Origin: Oleiharenicola lentus
GTDB taxonomy: Bacteria; Verrucomicrobiota; Verrucomicrobiia; Opitutales; Opitutaceae
NCBI RefSeq assembly: GCF_004118375.1
Contig: NZ_SDHX01000001.1
Location: forward strand, 682,001 to 746,000
DNA length: 64,000 nt
Reading direction: 5' to 3'
The position numbers were made by a program, and so were the translations under genes. The notes beneath the pieces are model-generated. The model ran no database searches, was not told the origin of the DNA, and worked only from the letters and a program-made list of their open reading frames with translations. Shown here piece after piece: positions 10,830 through 52,746 of this stretch (positions within the stretch are counted from its first letter, which is position 1; each line of letters begins with the position of its first letter).

Positions 10830-10917
10830 TGTCATTCAGCGCGCAGCGAAGAATCCAGTCGCCCGCATCCCGCGTCACATTCGAACCGCTGGATCCTTCG
10901 CTTCGCTCAGGATGACA
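10830..10917. repeat. Dispersed inverted repeat, TGTCATYCTGAGCG family, copy 1
   Basis: Left arm TGTCATTC...GCGCAGCGAAGAATCCAG and right arm CTGGATCCTTCGC...CTCAGGATGACA are near-complementary, giving a long imperfect hairpin about 88 nt in span between kduD and the DUF4861 gene. Two more copies lie at 51046-51143 and 52123-52233. Confidence 0.75.
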
Positions 10918-48386: not shown

Positions 48387-48490
48387 GCGAAATTCACGGT
48401 AGGCTTCCGGTTGCCGTTGGCAAGGAGGTGCATGGGGTTTTTGTGCAACTTGCGCTTGCCCGGCGGGCGGGGCGCCGCCGGGATGGAGGC

Positions 48491-49468
48491 ATGAGCCTGA
48501 CTGTCTGGACCAACCACGTTTTCCGTCCCGAAGCGCTGCCGGTGTTCGAGTCGCAGCTGCGTGCCGCCGGCCACCGGCTGATCGTGTCGCCCAAGGCCTC
48601 GCCCCTGGTGCTGGCGGCCGGGGCCGACGACCCCACGCTGGCGGAGGCGGATGTGGCTTTCGGCCAGCCGGACGTCGCCCAGGTCATGGCGTGCCCGCGG
48701 CTGAAATTCGTGGAGCTGAGTTCGGCCGGCTACACCCGTTACGACCGCGACGATCTCCGCGCCGCCATGAAAAGCCGCGGCGTGCCCGTGACCAACGCCT
48801 CGCAGGTTTTCGCCGATCCCTGCGCGCAGCACGTGCTCGGGCAGATGCTCGCGCTTGAGCGCAACCTGCTGGTCCAGTTCCGCAATCAGCAGGCCCCGCG
48901 CGAGTGGCGCTACCTGGAGGACCGTTTCACGAACGGCACGCTGACGCGACGCACCGTGCTGCTGCTCGGCTACGGCGCCATCGGCCGCCGCCTTGCGGAA
49001 TTGCTGCAGCCCTTCGGCACCCAGGTCACGGCCTACCGTCGCCGCCCGCGCGGCGACGAAGGCGTGCCGGTGGTGGGCGAGGCCGCGCTGCCCGGCGCGC
49101 TCGCCGCGGCGGACCATGTCGTGAACATCCTGCCGGATTCGCCGGCCACCACCGGTTGGATGGACGCGGCGCGCTTCGCCCAGATGAAATCCGGGGCGCG
49201 TTTCTACAACATCGGGCGCGGCACCACCGTGGACCAACCGGCCCTGATGGCCGCGCTGGCCTCCGGCCACGTCGGCGCCGCCTACCTCGACGTGATGGAC
49301 CCCGAGCCGCTGCCCCCGGCGCATCCGCTGTGGGACGCAAAAAACTGCTTCATCACCTGCCACATCGGCGGTGGTACGCGGGACCAGGATGAAAATCTTG
49401 CGCGGCACTTTCTCGCCAACCTCGAGGCTTTCGGGCGGGGCGGGACGTTGGTGGACAGGATCATGTAG
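48491..49468 (+). CDS. D-2-hydroxyacid dehydrogenase (NAD-dependent)
   Basis: A 325-residue oxidoreductase of the D-isomer-specific 2-hydroxyacid dehydrogenase family. It has the Rossmann motif GYGAIGRRLAELL in the middle, the active-site Arg in NIGRGTTVDQ, Glu in MDPEPLPPAHPLW and His in ITCHIGGGT, which together are the family catalytic set. The start MSLTVWTNHVF was chosen because upstream codons are Arg/Gly-rich non-homologous sequence. The sequence GGAGG lies only 1 nt before the ATG, too close for optimal pairing. Substrate (glyoxylate, hydroxypyruvate or other) cannot be told. Confidence 0.88.
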   Translation: MSLTVWTNHVFRPEALPVFESQLRAAGHRLIVSPKASPLVLAAGADDPTLAEADVAFGQPDVAQVMACPRLKFVELSSAGYTRYDRDDLRAAMKSRGVPVTNASQVFADPCAQHVLGQMLALERNLLVQFRNQQAPREWRYLEDRFTNGTLTRRTVLLLGYGAIGRRLAELLQPFGTQVTAYRRRPRGDEGVPVVGEAALPGALAAADHVVNILPDSPATTGWMDAARFAQMKSGARFYNIGRGTTVDQPALMAALASGHVGAAYLDVMDPEPLPPAHPLWDAKNCFITCHIGGGTRDQDENLARHFLANLEAFGRGGTLVDRIM

Positions 49469-49663: not shown

Positions 49664-50011
49664 ATGAACAAGTCCACGCGACTCATCATCACCGCGGCCG
49701 CCATCGCCGGCCTCTATGCCGGTTCCCTCGCCGTCAAAGCCAACGCCGCCGAGTCCGGCAGCGCCGCCCCCGCCGGCGAAAAAGCCAAGGATGCCTGCAA
49801 AGGCAAAGACGGCTGCAAGGCCAAGGAAGGCAAAGACGCCTGCAAGGGGAAGGACGGTTGCAAGGCCAAGGAGGGCAAGGAGGGGTGCAAGGCGAAGGAC
49901 GGCTGCAAGGGCAAGGACACCTGCAAATCCGCCGACGGCAAGGACACCTGCAAGGCCAAGGAGGCCTGCAAGAGCAAGGACGGCTGCAAGGCCGCCGACA
50001 AGAAGGGCTGA
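49664..50011 (+). CDS. Secreted Cys/Lys-repeat precursor peptide, bufferin-like RiPP
   Basis: A 115-residue protein. Residues 1-28 are a Sec signal peptide (MNKSTRLIITAAAIAGLY..., cleavage after KANA). After a short SGSAAPAGE spacer, residues 40-115 are a low-complexity repeat of K-[DE]-x and C-K-x triplets: 10 Cys, 25 Lys, 14 Asp/Glu. The cysteines are at 45, 51, 60, 66, 75, 81, 87, 96, 102 and 108, all multiples of three. The gene stands before a DUF692 enzyme and a DUF2063 protein, the partners of bufferins (periplasmic copper-binding RiPPs whose cysteines are oxidised by the DUF692 enzyme). The usual EGKCG motif is replaced by K[DE]GCK. An alternative ATG lies 9 bp upstream. A terminator follows. 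Confidence 0.88.
   Translation: MNKSTRLIITAAAIAGLYAGSLAVKANAAESGSAAPAGEKAKDACKGKDGCKAKEGKDACKGKDGCKAKEGKEGCKAKDGCKGKDTCKSADGKDTCKAKEACKSKDGCKAADKKG
49787..50002 (+). repeat. In-frame 9-bp-phased tandem repeat encoding the core region
   Basis: Units of nine bases such as AAGGACGGC and TGCAAGGCC alternate with slight codon variation, so the DNA repeats with 9-, 18- and 27-bp periods. This is the coding basis of the three-residue phase of the cysteines and a likely source of copy-number variation. Confidence 0.8.
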
Positions 50012-50130: not shown

Positions 50131-51015
50131 ATGCCCGCCAATCCTCACAACGGTTACACCGACTACGGCATCGGCCTGGGCCTGCGCGTGCCGCACTACG
50201 ACCACATCCTGGCGGAGAAGCCGACGGTGGACTGGTTCGAGATCATCTCGGAGACCTTCATGGTGGACGGCGGTCGTCCGCTGGAGGTGCTCGATCGCAT
50301 CCTCGCGCAATACCGCGTCGTCCAGCACGGCGTGTCGCTCTACTTCGGCTCGGCCGACGATCCCGACCGTGCGCACCTGAAGAAGCTCAAGGCGCTCACG
50401 AAGCGCACGAGGACACCCTGGCTCTCCGACCATCTTTGCTGGGGCAGCGTGGACGGCACCTATTCGCACGACCTGCTGCCGATGCCCTACACCTTTGCCG
50501 CCGCGAAGCGCACGGCGGAGAAAATCCGCATGGTGCGCGACTACCTCGAGCTGCCCATTGCGGTCGAGAACGTCAGCTCCTACACCGAGTTCCATGTCTC
50601 GGAGATGACAGAGTGGGAATTTCTCACCGAGGTCGTCGAGCTGGCCGACTGCGGAATCCTGCTCGACGTGAACAACATCTACGTCTCCTCGAAGAACCAC
50701 AGCTTCGATCCCTACGACTACGTGAACAACGTGCCGCATCACCGCGTCGCGCAGATGCACATCGCCGGGCACACGAAGTTCGAGAAATACATCCTCGATA
50801 CGCATGACCATCCTGTGCTCGACCCGGTGTGGAAACTCTATGCCCACGCCACGAAGCTCTGCGGCGTGACCGCCACGCTGCTGGAGTGGGACGACAAGAT
50901 TCCGTCCTTCCAGGAAGTCCACGACGAGGCCCTCAAGGCCAACCAATTCATCGCCGAGGCGCGCGCGGCAAAGATCCCGGCACCGCAGAGGGTGAGCCGA
51001 GCGAAGGCGAAGTGA
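50131..51015 (+). CDS. DUF692 multinuclear non-heme iron oxidative enzyme (MNIO), BufB-like
   Basis: A 294-residue TIM-barrel enzyme. Family motifs run in order: YGIGLGLRVPHYDHIL, WFEIISETFM, VVQHGVSLYFGS (His66), PWLSDHLCW (His101), AVENVSSYTEF (Glu146), LLDVNNIYVSSKNH (Asp180, Asn181), MHIAGH (His210, His214), DTHDHPVLDPVWKLY (Asp226, His227) and TLLEWDDKIPSF (Glu252). These are the metal-binding positions shared with MbnB and TglH. MNIOs oxidise cysteines of precursor peptides, forming oxazolone/thioamide, thiooxazole or excised groups. Here the Cys-repeat protein is the obvious substrate. It follows the precursor and an attenuator hairpin and precedes a DUF2063 gene. Confidence 0.94.
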   Translation: MPANPHNGYTDYGIGLGLRVPHYDHILAEKPTVDWFEIISETFMVDGGRPLEVLDRILAQYRVVQHGVSLYFGSADDPDRAHLKKLKALTKRTRTPWLSDHLCWGSVDGTYSHDLLPMPYTFAAAKRTAEKIRMVRDYLELPIAVENVSSYTEFHVSEMTEWEFLTEVVELADCGILLDVNNIYVSSKNHSFDPYDYVNNVPHHRVAQMHIAGHTKFEKYILDTHDHPVLDPVWKLYAHATKLCGVTATLLEWDDKIPSFQEVHDEALKANQFIAEARAAKIPAPQRVSRAKAK

Positions 51016-51045: not shown

Positions 51046-51143
51046 CTGTCTTCCTGCGCGTAGCGAAGGATCCAAGGAAATATGCGGCGATGACATGGTT
51101 GCCGGGCGTCCGCTTGGAATCTTCGCTGCGCTCAGAATGACGG
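51046..51143. repeat. Dispersed inverted repeat, TGTCATYCTGAGCG family, copy 2
   Basis: Left arm CTGTCTTCCTGCGCGTAGCG with AAGGATCC and right arm GGAATCTTCGCTGCGCTCAGAATGAC are largely complementary. It lies between the DUF692 and DUF2063 genes. Confidence 0.7.
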
Positions 51144-51152
51144 ATTTTGCTT

Positions 51153-52097
51153 ATGGCTTCTAAATCGAAAGCGGCGAAGCCCAAGGTCGCGACCGCCCCC
51201 GCGCGCATTGATTCCACGCGGGACCTCGCCGCGCTCCAGCGCGCGATGTGGGGATTGGTGTCGCAGCCGCTCACGGCGGACAACCGCATGAAACCGCGCA
51301 CGCGCGACGGCCGCTCCACCGCCGCGGCCGCGGCGGAGATCGCGAAGCCCAACGACCGGCTCACCTCCTTCGAGCGCCTCGAGATCTACAACCGCATGTA
51401 TTGGTTCCGCGTGCTCGACAGCCTCTACGAGGACTGTCCGGGCCTGCGCGCGGTGCTCGGTGACGCGAAGTTCATGCGGATGGCCGAGGCCTACCTGCAG
51501 AAATACCCGTCGCGTTCCTTCACGTTGCGCAACCTGCCGTCACGCCTGGAGAAATTTCTGCGCGAGGAGCCGAAGTGGTCCAAGCCGCACACCGCACTTT
51601 GCCTCGACCTCGCGCGTTTCGAGTGGGCGCAGGTCGAGGTCTACGACGGCGGCGCGCAACCGCTTTTCCGCGTCGAGGATCTCGCCGGCGTCAATCCGGC
51701 CCGCGTGCGGCTCGCGCTGCAGCCCTACCTCCAGCTCCTTCTGCTCGACCACCCGGTGGACGAGTTCCTGATCGCGATCAAGAAGCGCGAGGCCTTGTTG
51801 CGCGGCGACGCCAGCAACGCCCCGACCCGCGTGCGCACGGCCAAGGTCAGCCGGGTGCCGCTGCCGGAGCGCGAGAAGTGCGCCGTGGCCGTGCATCGCA
51901 TGGACGGGCGGATCTACTTCAAGCGCCTCGAGCCCGCGGCGTGCAAAGTGTTGCTCGCGATCCGCGCGGGCCAGCCACTCGGCCAGGCGCTGGCCGCCGG
52001 GCTGCCCCGTGCAAAGCCGGCGCAGGCCGATTGGGCCGGAAAAGTACAGGTCTGGTTCAGCACCTGGATGCAGCTGGGGTGGTTCTGCCGAAGATAG
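51153..52097 (+). CDS. DUF2063 partner protein (BufC/MbnC-like)
   Basis: A 314-residue protein whose N-terminal part matches DUF2063: ALQRAMWGLVSQPL (about residues 25-38), LTSFERLEIYNRMYWFRVLDSLYEDCPGLRAVLGDAKFMRMAEAYLQKYPSRSFTLRNLPSRLEKFL and the following CLDLARFEWAQVEVYD. Such proteins pair with DUF692 enzymes, and in the methanobactin and bufferin systems the partner binds the precursor and is needed for modification. The C-terminal part (about 225-314) is a winged-helix-like domain. The ATG was chosen over an in-frame TTG 6 bp upstream. A basic, Lys/Ala-rich N-terminal tail (ASKSKAAKPKVATAPAR) precedes the domain. Copies of a dispersed inverted repeat flank the gene on both sides. Confidence 0.88.
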   Translation: MASKSKAAKPKVATAPARIDSTRDLAALQRAMWGLVSQPLTADNRMKPRTRDGRSTAAAAAEIAKPNDRLTSFERLEIYNRMYWFRVLDSLYEDCPGLRAVLGDAKFMRMAEAYLQKYPSRSFTLRNLPSRLEKFLREEPKWSKPHTALCLDLARFEWAQVEVYDGGAQPLFRVEDLAGVNPARVRLALQPYLQLLLLDHPVDEFLIAIKKREALLRGDASNAPTRVRTAKVSRVPLPEREKCAVAVHRMDGRIYFKRLEPAACKVLLAIRAGQPLGQALAAGLPRAKPAQADWAGKVQVWFSTWMQLGWFCRR

Positions 52098-52122: not shown

Positions 52123-52233
52123 TGTCATCCTGAGCGCAGCGAAGGATCCAGTTGCACGCCCGCCGGCGCGCATCGATCTGGATCTGAGCCCTGTCGCCTT
52201 CGGCTCGGTAACTTCGCTGCGCTCAGAATGACA
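52123..52233. repeat. Dispersed inverted repeat, TGTCATYCTGAGCG family, copy 3
   Basis: TGTCATCCTGAGCGCAGCGA (left) and TTCGCTGCGCTCAGAATGACA (right) are near-perfect complements around a loop that contains a secondary inverted word. It lies between the DUF2063 and DoxX genes. Confidence 0.8.
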
Positions 52234-52284: not shown

Positions 52285-52746
52285 ATGCAACTCCGCCCCC
52301 TGCTCGCCAAGTTTGATGCGGTCGCCGCTTTCCTGCAGTCTCCGCTGCTGTTGGTCATCCGCCTCTTCTGGGGCTGGCAGTTTGCCCAAACCGGCTGGGG
52401 CAAGCTCATGAACCTCGACCGCACCGCCGGCTTCTTCGCCTCGCTCGACATTCCGTTGCCCAAGCTGAACGCGATCTTGGCCGGTGGCACGGAATGCGTC
52501 GGCGGGATATTGCTCGCGCTCGGTTTGTTCGCGCGGCCGGCGTCGGTGCCGCTGGTTTTCACCATGCTTGTCGCCTACGGGACGGCGGATCGCGACGCGC
52601 TGAGCGCGATTGTGAGCGATCCCGATCAGTTTACCGGTGCCGCGCCCTTTCTGTTCCTGCTCGCGTCGCTCCTCGTGCTGGCCTTCGGACCGGGCAAACT
52701 TTCGCTCGATGCACTGCTGGGCAAAGCGGGCGGCTCCGCGAAATGA
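52285..52746 (+). CDS. DoxX-family membrane protein of the bufferin-like cluster
   Basis: A 153-residue protein with four membrane helices. LLLVIRLFWGWQFAQTGWGKLMNLDRTAGFFASLDIPLPKLNAILAGGTECVGGILLALGLFARPASVPLVFTMLVAY is the DoxX signature (W-Q-F..G-W-G-K, E-x-x-G-G). DoxX proteins often accompany MNIO/bufferin genes, where a role in redox chemistry at the membrane or in cofactor recycling is presumed. The start MQLRPLLAKF in a GCCC-ATG context fits the local pattern. An in-frame ATG at 52249 with GGAG upstream would add 12 residues. It is downstream of the third dispersed repeat, so transcription with the cluster is likely but not certain. Confidence 0.85.
   Translation: MQLRPLLAKFDAVAAFLQSPLLLVIRLFWGWQFAQTGWGKLMNLDRTAGFFASLDIPLPKLNAILAGGTECVGGILLALGLFARPASVPLVFTMLVAYGTADRDALSAIVSDPDQFTGAAPFLFLLASLLVLAFGPGKLSLDALLGKAGGSAK

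Follow-up and report, generated by a model that had tools for sequence, protein, structure and literature searches.

The described systems closest to the locus reported here are the bufferins and the captophorins. According to the portion of the bufferin study available to us (PMC12452194), genes for a precursor, an MNIO, a DUF2063 protein and a DoxX protein form the core set of bufferin clusters, and a preliminary statement assigns the signal peptide to the recognition sequence. The accessible part of the captophorin study (PMC13097082) reports that MNIO-DUF2063 pairs install 5-thiooxazoles on cysteine with the loss of four hydrogens per site, and that the products bind copper. We compare with these systems a cysteine-rich protein encoded in a 64,000-nucleotide stretch of DNA from Oleiharenicola lentus, the whole of which we call the window.

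In those same portions of text, Buf2 precursors (BufA2, Buf_6/12Cys; model NF050166; PMC12452194) share with this protein a signal-like leader, Cys-Lys-Gly units spaced by six residues and the gene order precursor-MNIO-DUF2063-DoxX, which is that of the window. Unlike them, the window precursor has ten cysteines, an extra array, a putative hinge of nine rather than seven residues, its last cysteine at +6 instead of +13, and low-complexity Lys/Asp/Glu units. With captophorins of the Cys-Lys class (PMC13097082) it has in common an MNIO plus DUF2063 pair, multiple Cys-Lys motifs and an Asp at the site of FonB Phe250; it departs from them in its hexapeptide array and 6/9 spacing. The Buf_EGKCG/oxazolin precursors (PMC12452194; FonA and HvfA in PMC13097082; MmrA in PMC12538549) are likewise variable in unit number (five to eight Cys in MmrA, by the available text of PMC12538549), with a single enzyme pair modifying many cysteines; their unit is EGKCG, with Lys before Cys, in 17-residue repeats that carry two motifs, whereas the window unit is Cys-Lys and spans six residues. 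The accessible portions of these three papers contain no hexapeptide-expanded Buf2 precursor, and ‘hexa’ has 0 occurrences in that of PMC13097082; the supplementary table announced in PMC12452194, with hundreds of unclassified precursors of 1–18 Cys, may include the type.

We propose that the window gene probably encodes the precursor of a bufferin-like ribosomal metallophore (captophorin, Cys-Lys class) that descends from a Buf2-type ancestor with six cysteines and has grown in blocks, the three-residue phase of its cysteines being a by-product. The operon, the enzyme class, the likeness to six-Cys relatives and the changes in unit number are supported directly. The precursor's own match to BufA2 being weak, its relatives and context are what would place it in this company.

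Table 1. Features of the precursor operon, in window coordinates
Feature	Position	Strand	Basis
Cys-rich precursor gene, 115 aa plus stop	49664..50011	+	ten Cys, context K-[D/E]-x-C-K-x
N-terminal leader, residues 1-28, signal-peptide-like	49664..49747	+	basic start, hydrophobic stretch, ANA
N-terminal array, residues 45-74, Cys 45, 51, 60, 66	49796..49885	+	within 15-residue (45-bp) repeat
C-terminal six-Cys segment, residues 75-108, spacings 6,6,9,6,6	49886..49987	+	read as the 6,6,7,6,6 domain of relatives
Putative hinge C-KSADGKDT-C, 9 residues	49922..49951	+	usual length 7, e.g. C-KSSDNG-C
MNIO (DUF692), BufB type	50131..51015	+	PF05114 345.3 bits; NF050167 MNIO_BufB 333.5 bits, cut-off 310
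Asp254-Asp255 of MNIO, candidate catalytic base and candidate Cys-Lys specificity Asp	50890..50895	+	EWDD motif, alignments
DUF2063 partner	51153..52097	+	PF09836 51 bits; NF050145 HvfC 45.3 bits, below cut-off 142
DoxX-family membrane protein	52285..52746	+	PF07681 76.8 bits; NF050144 HvfX 68 bits, below cut-off 80; presumed start, frame open from 52009

The operon and its enzymes

The window MNIO scores above the cut-off of the BufB model and is likely to be a cysteine-modifying enzyme. Its relatives in the PDB are 3bww, 8hci and 7dz9, the first of which has Asp-Phe at the site of Asp254-Asp255. The available text of PMC13097082 names Asp249/Phe250 in FonB and Asp251 in BufB2, and gives to enzymes of the Cys-Lys class an Asp at the FonB Phe250 position, modelled as touching the substrate lysine. 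The window enzyme has Asp at this position, the site being assigned through alignment with enzymes other than FonB. Across 146 related loci, the motif reads EWDD in 135; the remainder are six EWDA, two EWDN, one EWDS, one ERDE and one that was not read. Three of four BufA2-linked plasmid enzymes (the alphaproteobacterial three) have DD, and the one from Thiothrix has DG; DG, i.e., Gly after the catalytic Asp, is also found in both DUF2282-linked enzymes (n = 2). Asp255 supports, without proving, a Cys-Lys specificity for the window MNIO. On the substrate side the multiple Cys-Lys motifs of the captophorin class are present: all ten window cysteines have Lys next.

To place this operon among its kin, MNIO loci were drawn from the window's own family and from 84,980 species genomes; of 560 loci in the latter the best 80 were kept, a choice that favours near relatives in the counts. 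An open reading frame upstream of an MNIO was taken as a precursor if it had a hydrophobic start and at least two C[KSANHRTQ][GASKM] motifs. A Cys-rich ORF lies directly upstream in 156 of 168 loci (some genomes were fetched twice); of the 12 without a precursor by this rule, seven have fewer than 420 bases upstream, and one (L019) holds a four-Cys ORF to which the rule was blind. In 106/109 loci with enough sequence DUF2063 comes after the MNIO on the same strand, no more than 500 bp away, and in 76/104 DoxX lies within 2500 bp. PF05114 is found in 77 of 252 genomes of the family (76 over the cut-off) and in 13 of 21 of the genus; present in a part of the genomes at each rank, the operon is thus accessory.

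These counts bear on whether the precursor is modified at all. Many regularly spaced cysteines would also suit an unmodified, metallothionein-like metal-binding protein, with the MNIO acting elsewhere. We consider this improbable: the only PF05114 match of the window's genome adjoins the precursor gene, which has no second copy in that genome, and the frequency with which a Cys-rich ORF immediately precedes the MNIO speaks against it as well.

Two further features of the region were recorded. A REP-like element, CTGAGCGCAGCGAAGGATC, forms three inverted pairs at window positions 51054–51135, 52130–52226 and 10837–10910, the first two lying in the MNIO/DUF2063 and DUF2063/DoxX gaps; a search allowing up to 3 mismatches returned 6 matches, with 0.05 expected. 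Upstream of the precursor, on the same strand, lies a D-2-hydroxyacid dehydrogenase gene (48488–49468); of the 71 loci that have at least 2 kb of upstream sequence, 14 hold a relative no more than 1500 bp upstream.

Spacing and repeat structure of the precursor

The start codon of the precursor, ATG at 49664, agrees with homologues that open with MNKSTR. Counted from it, the ten cysteines fall at residues 45, 51, 60, 66, 75, 81, 87, 96, 102 and 108, and our recount bears out the original observation that all are multiples of three; the spacings are 6,9,6,9,6,6,9,6,6. When residues 40–114 were naively shuffled, 4 of 200,000 trials brought the ten cysteines into a common phase, a figure in which the ten events are not independent, since the cysteines sit within a repeat. 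The regularity is broader than first noted: residues 41–112 form 24 triplets, whose first position is small (Ala, Gly, Ser or Thr) in 24/24 (0 of 100,000 shuffles reached that), the second Lys or Cys in 22/24, and the third Asp, Glu or Lys in 24/24. There is no proline in the core, and the EGKCG motif that marks the Buf_EGKCG/oxazolin type is absent from the translation.

At the DNA level, a 9-bp period had been proposed to match this register. Such a period is present; it is not, however, the main one: shifted by 9 bp the sequence has a self-identity of 0.38, while shifts of 18 and 27 bp give 0.59 and 0.58. In Tandem Repeats Finder the highest scores belong to rows of 63 bp × 2.8 and 45 bp × 3.0, and the 9-bp row (2.4 copies, 49863–49884) is among the weakest. 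The 45-bp repeat spans 49782–49917, and its third copy extends through Cys 75 and 81, so that the border between array and six-Cys segment is not sharp.

The PDB returned two weak matches to the precursor, one a LIM-domain protein and one a collagen-domain protein; AlphaFold folded neither the window precursor (pLDDT 49.1, single sequence) nor a six-cysteine relative (pLDDT 55.6, 40 sequences) with confidence. In Pfam the precursor has no match to Buf1 (DUF2282), and at E ≤ 0.01 its sole match is Collagen, below the cut-off. We rejected a collagen relation: PF01391 reaches E 9.7e-4 and 19.3 bits against a cut-off of 27.2, the SclB model 35.6 bits against 325, and the sequence is of low complexity. 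Collagen-like adhesins (Scl, Lcl) do share a small residue at every third place, which yields these weak model matches; unlike them, the window precursor scores far under the cut-offs, lacks proline in its core and lies in a bufferin-type operon.

The BufA2 model (NF050166, cut-off 60 bits) gives the window precursor 13.5 bits (E 0.064), a distance that marks it as a diverged derivative. Nor does its sequence show the BufA2 frame of six cysteines, 6,6,7,6,x, the last six being spaced 6,6,9,6,6; its position, directly before a BufB-type MNIO with a DUF2063 partner, is that of a BufA2 gene. Four six-Cys relatives score 36.1–50.6 bits, again below 60, two relatives with nine cysteines 18.8 (L034) and 22.1 (L008), and L026 has no BufA2 row in the model search. 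Within the family, 46 of 200 genomes have a BufA2 match at E ≤ 0.01 and 0 of 200 a match over the cut-off; the window's genome has no match. Weak BufA2 matches by themselves prove little, given that a control, Lactococcus lactis (1 of 14 genomes), likewise had a match at E ≤ 0.01, below the cut-off. Proteobacterial plasmid precursors beside an MNIO, annotated as ‘hypothetical protein’ in their records, score 88.5–104.4 bits (4/4 scored) and carry a 6,6,7,6,13 domain at 5/5 loci, two of which have identical proteins. Taken with the relatives of the window precursor, these BufA2-passing proteins make the 6,6,7,6 frame common across phyla.

Units, hinge and array growth among the relatives

Merging identical sequences and dropping L145 (30% MNIO identity, a glycine-rich protein) left 125 distinct precursors; L145 is still included in a set of 126 and in the counts of hinge-pattern gaps below, and cysteines before residue 27 were excluded throughout. 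The 717 gaps between cysteines in the 125 comprise 563 of 6 residues, 93 of 7 and 24 of 9, and 33 of the 154 gaps other than 6 are multiples of three. The succession 6,6,7,6,6 is contained in 91 of the 125 precursors, in 67 as the exact spacing. Around 760 cysteines of 113 precursors, the next residue is Lys in 79% and the one after it Gly in 63%. Gap counts and context together identify the unit as a hexapeptide around Cys-Lys, and the common domain as a pair of triads with a 7-residue hinge between them.

A strict three-residue register had been put forward as the organising rule, with homologue spacings that are not multiples of three named in advance as the observation that would tell against it. 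Such spacings, mostly the 7-residue hinge, occur in 107 of the 125 distinct precursors, and the rule falls. Variation in unit number, which had also been expected, is borne out: relatives have 3–14 Cys across the 125, and 6–14 in 13 precursors of the same genus.

The register might nevertheless be selected in itself, the chain being extended in a polyproline-II- or collagen-like manner with its cysteines on one face. The unbroken run of small residues at the triplet starts, the weak collagen-model matches and the 18 of 125 precursors that keep every gap divisible by three (some trivially, having three Cys) can be cited for this. We think it very unlikely: the core has no proline, the precursors that break the register include L131 and L152, of the window's genus, and L046 (6-11-6-11-6), of its clade, and a hinge that grew from 7 to 9 residues would imply an ancestor out of register. 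A bolder form, to which we give still less credence, is that the bufferin domain has become a register-locked polymer of small-x-x triplets, every second or third of them carrying a modified cysteine, so that thiooxazoles along one side would bind a row of copper, with a capacity set by unit number.

Another observation concerns the hinge. In one alignment (A2), window cysteines 75, 81, 87, 96, 102 and 108 pair with the six of the relatives' domain, C-KSADGKDT-C pairs with their hinge, and nothing in the six-Cys relative corresponds to the N-terminal array. The pattern C.[STA][not K]D stands at the start of 81 of the 93 seven-residue gaps and of 1 of the 564 six-residue gaps; it also opens 6 of 25 nine-residue gaps, all of them KSADGKDT in near relatives of the window, 2 of 4 ten-residue gaps and 1 of 5 eleven-residue gaps. 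This pattern was one of three tried, picked with the sequences already in view; the other two open 53 and 61 of the 93 seven-residue gaps and 0 of the 564 six-residue gaps. From these comparisons KSADGKDT may be read, without certainty, as the domain hinge extended from 7 to 9 residues. The reading is weakened by a further alignment with proteobacterial sequences (A4), in which the relatives' hinge faces window residues before Cys 81 and not CKSADGKDTC, by the presence of the signature, in the form KAAD, in gaps of greater length in L009 and L046, which means that it is not exclusive to 7-residue hinges, and by the 45-bp repeat that reaches Cys 81.

Those same points open the way to a different history, in which the whole cysteine array is a new repeat that replaced the six-Cys domain and the window retains no remnant of the hinge. 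Besides the unpaired hinge in A4, the reach of the 45-bp repeat and the barely perceptible BufA2 match, it can draw on the lack of the 7-residue hinge in the eight relatives that stand nearest to the window group. We regard it as possible, if rather unlikely, bearing in mind that KSADGKDT bears a hinge signature found in a single one of the 564 hexapeptide gaps, and that it is flanked by three cysteines on either side (6,6,9,6,6).

The MNIO tree has 67 rows, with enzymes at ≥79.5% identity; an earlier tree was made without L020 and L145. A clade of 21 rows (bootstrap 100, SH-aLRT 93) contains the window. One subclade of 8 rows (100/97) combines an array with the six-Cys domain in 7 of 8 members; in the eighth, L152 (6 Cys), the domain stands alone, although the enzyme hardly differs from that of L131 (11 Cys). 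The other, of 13 rows, unites the five-member window group, which has KSADGKDT, with the eight relatives that lack the 7-residue hinge (98/93), on a branch of modest support (92/70). A second hinge-less group (L008, L027 and L009; 94/96) stands elsewhere; a correct tree would thus imply two or more losses or changes of the hinge.

An array precedes an intact six-Cys domain in L003, L128 and L131; L155, of the same genus and with 14 Cys, has a short array and then two copies of the domain; and arrays without the 7-residue hinge are found in L034, L144 and L132 (9 Cys), L136 (7), L162 (5) and L161 (3). Core span is unequal in 12 of 14 related pairs (picked by eye), and 7 of those 12 differ by a multiple of 6 residues. 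Against the window precursor, L032 shows no indel and L026 one hexapeptide more. As evidence for slippage, codon identity between repeats is mixed: it exceeds the expectation from locus codon usage at p < 0.05 in 6 of 12 precursors (window p 0.038; locus codons were missing for L138), and that from the array's own usage in 0 of 12 (window p 0.81).

Some counts stand apart from the common plan. L034, L144, L132, L136, L162, L161 and L008 have odd numbers of cysteines, 9, 9, 9, 7, 5, 3 and 9, with all gaps 6; the odd counts in these seven Opitutaceae precursors look like paired gain or loss of units (36 bp); since the seven are related to one another, the pattern may be fortuitous. The more distant three-Cys rows L092 and L108 are odd as well. 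Seven precursors from Acidobacteriota (L076, L080, L087, L091, L096, L100 and L107) have four cysteines spaced 6,14,6, and have apparently lost the two that flank the hinge.

Returning to the block-grown Buf2 derivative that we prefer, precursors of this lineage would have gained hexapeptides and 15-residue blocks, and the domain hinge would have grown from 7 residues to 9. Since 6-residue units, 9-residue joints and a 9-residue hinge are all divisible by three, the common phase then arises as a by-product and not as a register that is kept.

Proposed function and value of the natural series

On comparison with the described systems, the window precursor is most likely a repeat-expanded derivative of Buf2-type precursors and would function like BufA2. 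We envisage that the MNIO and its DUF2063 partner convert the cysteine of each K-D/E-x-Cys-Lys hexapeptide to a thiooxazole, that the signal-like leader may help to hold the precursor during modification, and that the modified product would be exported via Sec and bind copper outside the cytoplasm. Cleavage of the leader is predicted after residue 28. Over 400 random pairs from 67 sequences, conservation is 0.71 for residues 1–24 and 0.71 for the Cys core, compared with 0.40 for the linker and 0.39 for the tail; a leader conserved like the core fits the preliminary statement on the signal peptide in the available part of PMC12452194.

The present BufA2 model fails to reach such repeat-expanded derivatives. 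Furthermore, Opitutaceae loci with closely related enzymes carry six-Cys, array-extended, two-domain (L155) and hinge-less array precursors (3–9 Cys, eight rows). This range is a natural series on what the MNIO recognises, a local hexapeptide or a fold, and the same series suits the question whether copper capacity scales with unit number.
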